12,811 nucleotides of DNA. Source: Candidatus Omnitrophota bacterium (GTDB taxonomy: Bacteria; Omnitrophota; Koll11; Zapsychrales; Fredricksoniimonadaceae). The position numbers and the translations under genes are program-made. The number at the start of each line of letters is the position of its first letter. The first letter of the stretch is position 1. The DNA lies in assembly GCA_015233705.1 (NCBI GenBank), contig JADFXE010000010.1, positions 2,644 through 15,454 on the forward strand, given 5' to 3'. Of this stretch, positions 9,093 through 12,811 are shown one piece after another. The notes under the pieces are model-generated. The model was not told the origin of the DNA. It ran no database searches and saw only the letters and a program-made list of their open reading frames with translations.

Positions 9093-9356
9093 TTAGCGAT
9101 AGGCATCCTTGCGATGACCGATATGGATAATCTGGACCATCACTCTGCCTTTATCAATTGAATAAACCACACGATATACTCCGACCCGTAAAGAATAAAA
9201 ACCATAAAGATCGCCAACAAGCGGTTTGCCCCGATACGGATCATAGGCCAAATCATTAATAGCGCTAGCCACATGTCCCGCCATCGAAGGCTGGGCCTTT
9301 TGGAGACGGGCCAAGGCCTTAAGCGCAATCGGCTCAATCTCAATCCTATATGTCAT
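9093..9356 (-). CDS. RelE/ParE-family toxin
   Basis: An 87-residue protein with the RelE fold pattern: N-terminal strand (YRIEIEP), two helices, then strands carrying the basic active-site residues. Visible landmarks are LVGDLYGFYSLRVGVYRVVY (residues 46-65), with R57 and R62, and the ending IIHIGHRKDAYR with R82 and Y86. These sit where RelE has its mRNA-cleaving Arg and Tyr residues. RelE toxins cleave mRNA in the ribosomal A site; some ParE-like relatives inhibit gyrase instead, so the exact target is inferred. The frame is open upstream to 9491, but the ATG at 9356 starts the conserved domain, gives a normal length and overlaps the antitoxin gene end by 11 bases, a typical translationally coupled pair. 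Confidence 0.92.
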   Translation of the reverse strand: MTYRIEIEPIALKALARLQKAQPSMAGHVASAINDLAYDPYRGKPLVGDLYGFYSLRVGVYRVVYSIDKGRVMVQIIHIGHRKDAYR

Positions 9357-9621
9357 ACCCCAAGTCTTTCTTTGCCTTCTCCCAGGGAATACCCTTACCA
9401 GCCTTGGCCTCCTTGATGCCCTCCCGAATCTCACGGACGATACCGGGGTTGGACAGGATCTCAATCGTCTCCATAATGCTTTCATAATCATCCTGAGACA
9501 TCAGGACCGCCTCCGGCCGGCCATGACGGGTGATCACAAACCGGTCCATATACTTGGACACCCTGTCCATGACATCCGGAAGCCTGGGACGCAATTCTGT
9601 CAACGGGATCATATTAACCAT
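9346..9621 (-). CDS. Phd/YefM-family antitoxin
   Basis: A 91-residue antitoxin that should bind and neutralise the RelE-like toxin encoded just downstream and repress its own promoter. The N-terminal DNA-binding Phd fold reads IPLTELRPRLPDVMDRV, then VITRHGRPEAVLMSQDDYES (residues 29-48), the standard family signature. The C-terminal third (about 60-91) is charged and probably folds on the toxin. The ATG at 9621 is supported by a full AGGAGG 7 bases upstream (9629-9634). Its own promoter lies directly upstream. The gene ends in TAG inside the toxin start region. Confidence 0.93.
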   Translation of the reverse strand: MVNMIPLTELRPRLPDVMDRVSKYMDRFVITRHGRPEAVLMSQDDYESIMETIEILSNPGIVREIREGIKEAKAGKGIPWEKAKKDLGYDI

Positions 9622-9737: not shown

Positions 9738-12290
9738 TTACCCGGCTGAAGCGGCGGCGGATTCCTGGCGCAGGCCGAGGAACAGGCGAAAATCCTTCAG
9801 CGGCTGGATGGTCATGCTGACCGGTACGAGGCCGGGAGCGCGCTCTAATCTCTGCAATTCAGCGGGATCAATGTTAAAGGACATCTGCGCGCTGTCGCCG
9901 CGGGTCTCAAGCACGCCGTCTGTCCGCTTGGCGGTCAGGTCAATACCACCCGGAGCTTCGGTCGGCGCGGCTGCGGCATCGGACGGACCATTGACCACCG
10001 TCTCCTGGACATTTTCGACCGGCGCGGCCTCAGCTCCCGATTCGGCCGGAGCCACAAACTCTGGCGCGGGCTCGACATTGCTGAGCGCATCCCTGATCAG
10101 GGCCTCAAACCCTGGCTGGTCGAGCTTGCGGCTCTCCACGCCATTGGCATCCACAGACACCAGGTCCGCGAAATAGTCGGCCAGCGGCTTCTTCGCCCGG
10201 CCCAGGCGATCCAAAAGGACCAGCGCAGCCTTGCGGTAAGTCAGGTTAAAAATCCCGCCCTCGGAGGTGTGCGAATAATACAGTCCCGGTGATAAAGACG
10301 CCGCACTGATAATGCCGCCCTTGACCATGAATTCGATCAGATGCGCCAACTCGTGGATCGTGACCTCGGTGGCCTCGTGAATATCAGTCCCGCTCGCGGC
10401 AAAGGCCGACATATTAGCCGACAAACGCTGCTTCAGATAGATCCTCCCGCCATCGACGAAGAAATTGCCCACAGCCTCACCCCGGGCCGTATCCATACTC
10501 GCGAGTATAACGTCATTAAACCCGAAAACCCCGGTAATGAATCGGGCCAGGAACATGAACTTGAGATCATCCGCGTTCCAATCTTTCCAGGGGATGACCT
10601 CTATCTTAGGCTCCTGGATAGGCGCCAGATCCTGATAAAGATCCGCGGCACTGGACCGGCCAAAAGATTCCACCTGCTCCCGGCTGACGCCCATCCGGCC
10701 CAAAAGATCATCAGAAAGTTCCTTCCGATAAACATAAAGCCGGGCGGCCAGAAGAGAAGTCCGCGTCTGCGGATTTTCAAAACTGTCCCAGACTTCAAGA
10801 TGCGCCAGGAATGACACGAATTTCGTCTTATCAAGAGCGCCCTGCGCGCCGCCAGCCTTGCCCGCGAACCAGTCGCGCAGCTGCTCCAGGTCTTTGACTG
10901 AAACCTTATCCAGATCATCGCTGTTGATCGTATTGGCCACGCGCACCAGCTCAGGTTCGGCATCGGCGGCCAAAGCTTTCCAATAACGCTCGCCGCCTCC
11001 CTCAAAATCCGTTGGCATGCCGCTGATCCTGAATCCGGGATCCTGGATCGACTTGAACGCCAGCGCCCGGTAAAAAAGCGTGGCCACCCGGACCTGATTG
11101 GCAGCCTCATTCTCCAGGCCGCCCTGGATCCGGTCGCGATTAATGGTCAACAGCACCGGCAGCTGAATAATCATCCCAAGATTCGAGATCTGCTCCTGTA
11201 GCGGCGCAGGGATCAAGGCCAGAAGGCTTTCCAGCCCGTCGACATCCGTGATGCGCAGCCCGTTGGCGTCGATGAATTGCGTGGGCATGTTCTTGTCCTT
11301 CACGCTCCAGATGCGGCCGGTCCGCTCCCTCATTCTTTTTACCATTTTCCCATCGACCTCTTCCCTGACCTCCTCCTTAAATTTAAGCTCAGACAAAAGT
11401 CTCACGCCCTTGACCTCCAGCGGCCTGGGATTGCCGTCCAGATCCTCGACCATGATCTGAAACTCCCGGCCTTCGCGTTTCTGCACGATCGGCACCATGC
11501 CGGCCATGACCTTAAGATGCCGTTCGTTCTGAAATTTCTCCAGCTCCGGGATAACATTCGCCAGCGCACTGATCATCCTGACCTTGACGCCGTGCGGCTG
11601 TTTCTGTGGATCGCCGGCCTCGGCCTTGAGAAGCCGGTAAGCGCCGGTATCGCGGTTGACCAAAACCGTAAGCTTGTAGGCCTGCTTACCGTTATTCATC
11701 TCGATCTCGACCACATCCTCGCGGCTGAAAACAGTCTTGGCGCCGCTGCCAAAGCGTCCGCTCTCCCCATCCCTCGGTTTGGTCGACCACTCCACCAAAA
11801 ACGCCAACACCGCGGCCTCGGTCTGCCCGCGGCCGTTATCGCTGACCTCACTGACACTGGCGCCTTTGGTGCCTGTGGGCAGATCAGCCTCGTCAGGAAA
11901 AATGTACCCCTCATTGCGGAAATGCCGGACCAGGACCTCGGTGGCACCCGCGCCGATCGCGTTCTGCAGCATCTCCCGCCACTTGACTCCAGGCTCGCCC
12001 TGATCGTTCACCATCTTCTCGTAGGCGCCGCGCCGGGCAGCAAAGGCCTTGCGGGCCGCTTCGCTCGACTCGCCTTCCTGCATCACGGTCACGACCCCGG
12101 CCAGCAGGTCTTCCAAAGACGGCAAACGCGGCTTGCCGTCCGGACCAGTCTTGAGATTGTCTTTGGCAAAAGTGTCGATAAACTCGATCCCCGCGCCGCC
12201 TTGCGGCAGACCGGGCATGATCTGGCCATCATACACCGGAACCGTGCCCTGGCGCATCATGGACAGACGGGTGGTCAGAAAGACGATCAT
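9738..12290 (-). CDS. GHKL-type ATPase with C-terminal HExxH metallopeptidase-like region
   Basis: An 850-residue frame of unusual architecture. Residues about 90-250 form a GHKL ATPase domain: N box WREMLQNAIGAGATEV (104-119, with E106 and N110), G1 box SDNGRGQ (150-156) and G2 box GRFGSGAKTVFS (178-189). The Asp often found three residues after the N-box Asn is Gly here (G113). TINRDRIQ (382-389) resembles the segment after the ATPase core in Hsp90/MutL/sacsin-like proteins. Residues 641-655 contain TEVTIHELAHLIEF, a zincin motif with H646, E647 and H650; E677 in HTSEGG is a possible third ligand. A Pro/Ala-rich linker (about 741-782) precedes a small C-terminal segment of about 68 residues. 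Only weak ribosome-binding sequence precedes the ATG at 12290. The same frame stays open upstream apart from one TAG, so this may be the 3' part of a much larger gene. The cellular role is unknown. Confidence 0.8.
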   Translation of the reverse strand: MIVFLTTRLSMMRQGTVPVYDGQIMPGLPQGGAGIEFIDTFAKDNLKTGPDGKPRLPSLEDLLAGVVTVMQEGESSEAARKAFAARRGAYEKMVNDQGEPGVKWREMLQNAIGAGATEVLVRHFRNEGYIFPDEADLPTGTKGASVSEVSDNGRGQTEAAVLAFLVEWSTKPRDGESGRFGSGAKTVFSREDVVEIEMNNGKQAYKLTVLVNRDTGAYRLLKAEAGDPQKQPHGVKVRMISALANVIPELEKFQNERHLKVMAGMVPIVQKREGREFQIMVEDLDGNPRPLEVKGVRLLSELKFKEEVREEVDGKMVKRMRERTGRIWSVKDKNMPTQFIDANGLRITDVDGLESLLALIPAPLQEQISNLGMIIQLPVLLTINRDRIQGGLENEAANQVRVATLFYRALAFKSIQDPGFRISGMPTDFEGGGERYWKALAADAEPELVRVANTINSDDLDKVSVKDLEQLRDWFAGKAGGAQGALDKTKFVSFLAHLEVWDSFENPQTRTSLLAARLYVYRKELSDDLLGRMGVSREQVESFGRSSAADLYQDLAPIQEPKIEVIPWKDWNADDLKFMFLARFITGVFGFNDVILASMDTARGEAVGNFFVDGGRIYLKQRLSANMSAFAASGTDIHEATEVTIHELAHLIEFMVKGGIISAASLSPGLYYSHTSEGGIFNLTYRKAALVLLDRLGRAKKPLADYFADLVSVDANGVESRKLDQPGFEALIRDALSNVEPAPEFVAPAESGAEAAPVENVQETVVNGPSDAAAAPTEAPGGIDLTAKRTDGVLETRGDSAQMSFNIDPAELQRLERAPGLVPVSMTIQPLKDFRLFLGLRQESAAASAG

Positions 12291-12311: not shown

Positions 12312-12811
12312 CTACTGCAAACCCGGAGCATTGCTCGCGTGAACCAGGTCCTCCAACTCCACCTTCCGTTCGTCAAATGCCCGGCACCACTGAGACAGGT
12401 AAAGAAGGGCCGCTCCCTTGAGCATTCCGTTGGCATGCCGCAGAGACAACAGTTGCCTGACCTGACGGTCGATGATCTCAAGCCCGCCGGGCTTTTGGGC
12501 CGCAGCGCTCAAAAACCGGATCATGTTAAGGCGCGTCTCCCGATTGGCCGGCGCGTCGATCTCGCTTAAAGTTTGCAAAAGATCCATGACTGTCTCGGTC
12601 TTTTTCAGCGATTCCTCGTCATGAATTTCCCACCCGAAACCAATCGCCTTCATAAAACGCTTGTCAGCCAGAAGATCATCCAGCGAGCCGTTAAGGTCCG
12701 GCACCGCGGCCAAGCCCATCAGGCCTCTGGCCAGACACCTGACAAACGGCCGCCTCGCCGTGGGATCAGAATAAAGGGTGCCGATGAACCGCTCGATCTC
12801 AGGCTTGTGCG
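12312..12811 (-). CDS. Upstream part of the long frame, ended by in-frame TAG (5' end beyond window)
   Basis: 165 codons are visible, open to the right window edge and ended by TAG at 12312-12314. The sequence is helical, with Leu-rich stretches such as ETVMDLLQTLSEI and RQVRQLLSLRHANGM. It has no motif I recognise; a HEAT- or ARM-like helical solenoid is conceivable but not shown. The frame is exactly that of the 850-codon gene that follows, and only seven sense codons separate the TAG from that gene's first ATG. Either this is the end of a separate gene whose neighbour happens to share its frame, or both are halves of one gene split by a nonsense change. An ATG at 12719 exists, but the frame continues beyond it without a stop, so that ATG is probably internal. 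Confidence 0.6.
   Translation of the reverse strand, partial: HKPEIERFIGTLYSDPTARRPFVRCLARGLMGLAAVPDLNGSLDDLLADKRFMKAIGFGWEIHDEESLKKTETVMDLLQTLSEIDAPANRETRLNMIRFLSAAAQKPGGLEIIDRQVRQLLSLRHANGMLKGAALLYLSQWCRAFDERKVELEDLVHASNAPGLQ

Follow-up and report, generated by a model that had tools for sequence, protein, structure and literature searches.

GHKL ATPase boxes and a zincin-like metal motif conserved together in giant, probably exported proteins of Omnitrophota

What would a protein do that carries the boxes of an ATP-binding clamp and the metal motif of a protease in one chain? The question is raised by a 12,811-nucleotide stretch of DNA from a Candidatus Omnitrophota bacterium (assembly GCA_015233705.1, contig JADFXE010000010.1, positions 2,644 to 15,454; hereafter the window). 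In the window a minus-strand open reading frame (ORF) of 850 amino acids, P0001 (9738..12290), encodes a GHKL ATPase-like module, a middle domain, a zincin-like region and a C-terminal module, and forms the C-terminal part of a giant protein. Judged from aligned sequences, the GHKL-zincin fusion is conserved in nearly all relatives found. A giant protein, probably exported, that joins GHKL to a zincin-like region and carries a further GHKL-like module whose boxes are permuted would come as a surprise to a specialist.

The three GHKL boxes and the HExxH motif lie in P0001 at the residues where the first-pass annotation of this DNA had placed them. All are on the minus strand: the N-box at residues 104-119 (11934..11981), with E106, N110 and a Gly at position 113 where Asp is expected; the G1 box at residues 150-156 (11823..11843), reading D151-N-G153-R-G155; the G2 box at residues 178-189 (11724..11759), reading G178-R-F-G181-S-G183; and HELAH at residues 646-650 (10341..10355), within a zincin-like region at residues 551-712 (10155..10640). 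A candidate third metal ligand, H674, is encoded at 10269..10271. Relatives of P0001 retain both motif sets together, which bears out the earlier proposal that GHKL and HExxH belong to one chain. Our alignment held 46 rows, representing 42 distinct proteins (L117, L118, L122 and L124 duplicate P0011, P0002, P0030 and P0028, respectively). E106, D151 and G155 were kept in all 46 rows and N110 and G153 in 45; G178, G181 and G183 were each kept in 45, with one row gapped. Position 113 was Asp in 44 rows, Gly in P0001 and Val in P0033, and the Asp-to-Gly change that the annotation had singled out is thus real and specific to P0001. H646, E647 and H650 were retained in 45 of the 46 rows, as was H674. 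Because this conservation extends over 46 aligned rows, the boxes are beyond chance. The distance from the second His of HExxH to H674 was 22-33 residues, and this candidate His ligand sets the family apart from the SprT-like, Zincin_1 and M91 zincins. In a 13-row alignment of the zincin-like region just six columns were invariant, and four of these are the H, E, H and H of the putative metal site.

A structure search with a predicted model of P0001 indicated that residues ~95-494 (10809..12008, minus strand) have a predicted fold like that of the N and middle domains of Hsp90 and MutL. The PDB chain 4z1i_C aligned over model residues 95-494, with a predicted middle domain after the GHKL domain; the predicted structure includes the Bergerat fold expected of GHKL ATPases, and R385, in an NRxxF stretch, was kept in 45 of 46 rows. 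HELAH lies inside a predicted helix (residues 638-656) after short strands, and in this it resembles the SprT-like, Zincin_1 and M91 zincin families, to which profile matches were marginal. The whole-model search tests the zincin-like part little, since the GHKL half fills the match list. Fold prediction sustains the GHKL half of the earlier assignment.

P0001 had no Pfam match, and none when compared alone with PDB sequences. The best NCBIfam match was the sacsin-type ATP-binding domain (residues 106-196; E 3.6e-4; 20.9 bits, where the cut-off is 50), and it is this match that likens P0001 to sacsin and sacsin-like GHKL proteins (NF047352, PF25794). With the core, the sacsin-type model NF047352 gave 21.5 bits, below 50, and E <= 1 in 10 of 13 members. 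We know of no zincin-like part in sacsin. Sacsin, as described in PMC3629688, is also giant (4,579 residues) with repeated regions. P0001 differs from Hsp90, TRAP1 and GRP94 in falling under every Hsp90-family cut-off (PRK14083, 10.7 against 455 bits for P0001; HtpG model, E 0.055 in one of 13 members), in having a zincin-like region after the GHKL module, and in belonging to a giant, probably exported chain. It differs from MutL and the GyrB 43-kDa ATPase fragment in context, and had no sequence-family match to them in the Pfam and NCBIfam scans. Among named peptidase families none scored above cut-off with P0001 (SprT-like, 12.2 against 25.6 bits). Consistent with the earlier remark that no characterised family has this order, no Pfam, NCBIfam or PADLOC model names a GHKL-zincin arrangement. 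We found no description of a fusion of GHKL with a metalloprotease or HExxH in the open-licence literature (bioRxiv preprints were outside the search), and no relevant description of a permuted GHKL or Bergerat fold in the same literature.

The 850-residue ORF had been taken for the whole protein; it proved to be the 3' portion of a gene that is longer. Upstream of the ATG at 12290 the minus-strand frame is open to the window edge save for one TAG (12314-12312). The piece beyond this codon (12312..12809, minus strand, 165 residues, open at the window edge) is in frame with P0001 and corresponds to the region before the GHKL module: it matches residues 2569-2725 of the relative L101 (E 5e-10) and scores 59.3 bits with a profile of the pre-core stretch from relatives. 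P0001 itself aligns to the adjoining L101 residues 2737-3483 (31% identity over P0001 residues 1-840), and in L101 the whole stretch lies in one 3,489-residue open frame. The two pieces of the window gene were compared unjoined and unmended. The upstream piece, being in frame, and the giant relatives led us to reject a stand-alone reading of the 850-residue ORF. The TAG within the giant gene could be a nonsense change, an assembly error or a real split.

Is the window's copy then an intact member of the family? Of 79 columns with a conservation of 90% or more, P0001 is changed in 20; among the 42 proteins a single one diverges further, and the first-pass doubt attached to G113 was therefore well placed. 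P0031 ranks first (20 of 76 columns) and P0033 comes after P0001 (18 of 77); the other 39 proteins had 0-14% of such columns changed. At the best-kept columns the changes in P0001 are G113, F124, S147, F164, M239, V379 and I388, each of them within the GHKL or the middle domain, and the HELAH metal motif is intact. The ATPase half of the window copy is probably weakened. We give about an even chance to the explanation that this copy is decaying or was assembled wrongly, an explanation that is compatible with every reading of the family given below. It would account for an in-frame TAG where L101 is open (TAG is a normal stop in the window, since the GuaB3 and Phd-like ORFs terminate with it too), for the changed conserved columns, G113, S147 and M239 included, and for the lack of a clear ribosome-binding site before the ATG at 12290. 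Yet 850 codons stay open past the TAG, and HELAH, H674, E106, N110, D151 and the G2 glycines are all retained; an error at one base would account for the TAG, just as rapid evolution would for the changed columns. Together the TAG and the changed columns suggest weakened constraint or a broken copy, though plain fast evolution may suffice, and the window gene may be broken or mis-assembled.

How widely is the fusion distributed? Searches with P0001 (7,995 candidates scored) and with an alignment of the core (7,993 scored, with lengths limited to ~366-1,165 residues) returned P0001 only, and a search of genome and viral collections with P0001 found no related locus. This length rule hides giant proteins, and the search was therefore repeated with a giant relative as query. 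Against 5.8 billion proteins, of which only the 7,977 candidates that shared the most words with the query were scored, it returned 33 proteins of 1,769-4,617 residues, one of them the query relative's own entry (P0002). An organism was given for 10 of the 33: nine Omnitrophica/Omnitrophota and one Ratteibacteria. The tally for nine related Omnitrophota genomes came to 103 matches of P0001 at E <= 1, including one full relative; among the matches listed, the rest fell within residues 738-850 of P0001 only, and such matches occurred in all nine genomes. Across 285 Omnitrophota genomes the core was found in 12 by single sequence and in the same 12 by profile, with seven more genomes giving partial matches. 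Open frames in the 12 genomes ran from 1,117 to 5,601 residues (up to about 17 kb), the shortest of them truncated where its contig stops. The relatives are giant, with lengths of 1,769-5,601 residues plus one shorter piece that ends at a contig end.

Beyond Omnitrophota, 10 genomes taken from other titles gave one partial core match. In the phylum of genome G294, reached via a locus labelled Elusimicrobia, none of 198 genomes had the full core and two had partial matches; the phylum of G288, reached via a Verrucomicrobia locus, had the full core in none of 194 genomes, a count made without a positive control. The phylum of G287, reached via an Auribacterota locus, had the full core in one of 44 genomes (G701), where it is split on two contigs (C75 and C67), and partial matches in three more. 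In view of this split core, the family may extend beyond Omnitrophota.

A second, N-terminal GHKL-like module, with the boxes in the order N-G2-G1, was found in 33 of 41 relatives (for example, P0034 residues 531-712 and L101 residues 501-680, both outside the window). It may represent a Bergerat fold that has undergone circular permutation. When the two GHKL modules were compared profile to profile, the outcome was a probability of 49% and E 1.7e-4, mainly over G2 and the following strands, a result unconvincing alone. Strong matches to the core, to the zincin-like part and to the N-terminal module fell in the same 12 of the 285 Omnitrophota genomes. In nine of the 12 all three lie in one open frame; in the other three (G188, G216 and G256) a separate contig carries the N-terminal module, and the frame with the core extends to the end of its contig. 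Outside the 12 genomes there were five weaker matches to the N-terminal module (best E 2.8e-15). The sole zincin-like match outside them was a weak one (E 9.2e-4) in a 44,856-residue open frame (G116:C3:32972-33085). Read from sequence, the order along the fuller relatives is a signal-peptide-like start, a variable N-terminal part, the permuted GHKL-like module, a long middle, the GHKL module with its middle domain, and the zincin-like region, closed in some relatives by the C-terminal module.

Export is suggested by the N-termini. A signal-peptide-like start, scored by a hydropathy rule only as a strongly hydrophobic 14-mer near the start, was present in 24 of the 33 relatives with the N-terminal N-box. 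Several of the remaining nine begin inside the protein, and the start of the window gene lies past the window edge. The giant protein is probably exported. The annotation had likened P0001 to defence-type effectors, an idea that these starts do not support; PADLOC anti-phage models gave no clear match (best E 0.0062, in one of 13 members), and with matches so marginal the defence reading was dropped. A neighbouring ORF at L126 (2-853, minus strand) also begins with a signal-peptide-like segment, and its LPAPGAMVGLTP stretch resembles, by eye, the starts of several giant relatives; a module at the N-terminus may be shared too.

At the other end of the chain, P0001 residues 776-850 (9741..9965, minus strand; GGIDL...LVPVSMTIQP...FLGL) form a module common to the ends of other Omnitrophota proteins. 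In other Omnitrophota ORFs this C-terminal module of ~70 residues (GGIDL...GFVPVIINIQPM...FLGL) ends 1-40 residues before the stop in 18 of 19 loci (L082-L100); in L099 it runs across a stop, and L095 is a partial match. In seven of 10 ORFs scanned it follows a HATPase_c, protein kinase, deaminase, NUDIX, glycosyl hydrolase 26 or guanylate kinase domain. It also ends histidine kinase-like and protein kinase-like Omnitrophota ORFs. Among the GHKL-zincin proteins it closes 11 of the 46 rows, P0001 included (by eye). The module looks like a sorting or assembly tag.

What might such a protein do? We tentatively favour a metalloprotease that is exported, is gated by ATP and works in or on another cell, a reading to which we give somewhat less than an even chance. 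ATP is scarce outside cells. Given this scarcity, and since most of the relatives whose start can be read seem to be exported, ATP would be met in or at another cell. Binding of ATP would close the GHKL clamp, and closure would expose or align the metal site of the zincin-like region. The exported protein would meet ATP after delivery into a neighbouring cell or after that cell's lysis, and ATP would serve as the signal that confines cleavage to the target; on this hypothesis ATP tells a secreted protease that it has arrived in living cytoplasm. Gating of a protease by GHKL clamps, if real, would place ATP-dependent proteolysis outside the AAA+ world. The fullest form of this reading, a new kind of ATP-dependent protease that is driven by Hsp90-like GHKL clamps in place of an AAA+ ring, is exported as a single giant chain carrying both GHKL modules (with a circularly permuted Bergerat fold, N-G2-G1, in the N-terminal one) and is switched on by the ATP of the entered cell, we consider rather unlikely. 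The family would give one class of very long Omnitrophota proteins two candidate chemical activities.

Several observations weigh against the ATP-gated protease. An exported GHKL ATPase is hard to reconcile with the lack of ATP outside cells, and delivery is assumed. The flanks of 11 loci had no recurring neighbour (by eye); at a single locus, L116, a SecA-like ORF was seen in the flank (by eye). HATPase_c_3, the sole cut-off that the GHKL-zincin core was seen to pass in the Pfam, NCBIfam and PADLOC scans, was passed in just one of six giant relatives scanned (L101, 28.1 against 25 bits). No profile placed the zincin-like part in a family; the best was SprT-like (E 7.2e-4), in two of 13 members, and a sequence comparison with the PDB gave nothing better than E 0.12. 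The loop bearing H674 was modelled with low confidence (block means of 31-57 in the predicted local distance difference test, pLDDT), so the geometry of the metal site is putative; the annotation had doubted the third zinc ligand, and that doubt is eased by a candidate kept in nearly every row but persists for its placement. Two relatives depart from the motifs: P0031 has neither HExxH nor H674, and P0033 has neither the Asn nor the Asp of the N-box. Finally, a 5,392-residue frame on G008 contig C35, with diverged or partial matches to both GHKL modules and no zincin match, speaks against strict linkage. This frame is perhaps a protease-less cousin.

Instead of another cell's proteins, the zincin-like part might cut its own chain, or sister proteins bearing the same tag, during export, with the GHKL clamps acting like chaperones and ATP being used before or during export. 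Such a self-processing or sorting machine would suit a very long chain with an Hsp90-like predicted fold, as well as a C-terminal module that recurs in other ORFs of all nine genomes searched and closes its ORF in the 19 loci inspected. But that module ends only 11 of the 46 rows (by eye), against 45 with HExxH, and there is no known cleavage site. Furthermore, the core sits near the C-terminus in many relatives and would hence be made late. We regard self-processing as unlikely.

The chains might also be surface scaffolds or adhesins in which the GHKL and zincin-like folds are structural, or sense extracellular ATP from lysing cells, without proteolysis. Giant ORFs are common in Omnitrophota, their roles are poorly understood, and the phylum has been proposed to include predators or parasites (Seymour et al. 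2023, PMC10066038). The proteins described here share with those ORFs the phylum, great length and a proposed extracellular role. The ORFs of that study were defined as longer than 20 kb, but the frames here reach at most 5,601 residues (about 17 kb), and its passages on their content name adhesion-type domains, not GHKL or zincin. Their reading there as adhesins or coats, and the signal-peptide-like starts found here, favour a scaffold. However, residues of catalytic type (E106, D151, H646, E647 and H650) are retained in 45-46 of the 46 rows, beyond what a scaffold needs, and we hold this explanation distinctly unlikely. That the family consists of cytoplasmic Hsp90-like chaperones or MutL-like DNA-repair proteins with a chance HExxH is highly improbable and disfavoured, for despite the fold matches to Hsp90 and MutL, the HExxH and the following His are kept in 45 of 46 rows, the starts are signal-peptide-like, the proteins are giant and Hsp90-family NCBIfam models score far under cut-off.

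The giant gene of the window is adjoined by a Phd/YefM-type antitoxin ORF and an overlapping ParE/RelE-type toxin ORF (9093-9621, minus strand). P0001, the upstream ORF, the toxin-antitoxin pair and the YfhO-like and TPR ORFs had no match in 80 loci. The GuaB3 of the window is 92% identical to its counterparts in L001-L003 (Omnitrophica metagenome-assembled genomes), and for DnaE the identity to these loci is about 71%. The nearest GuaA is that of L013 (84%), a metagenome-assembled contig labelled Elusimicrobia, followed by that of L001 (78%); L013 is perhaps a mislabelled bin.
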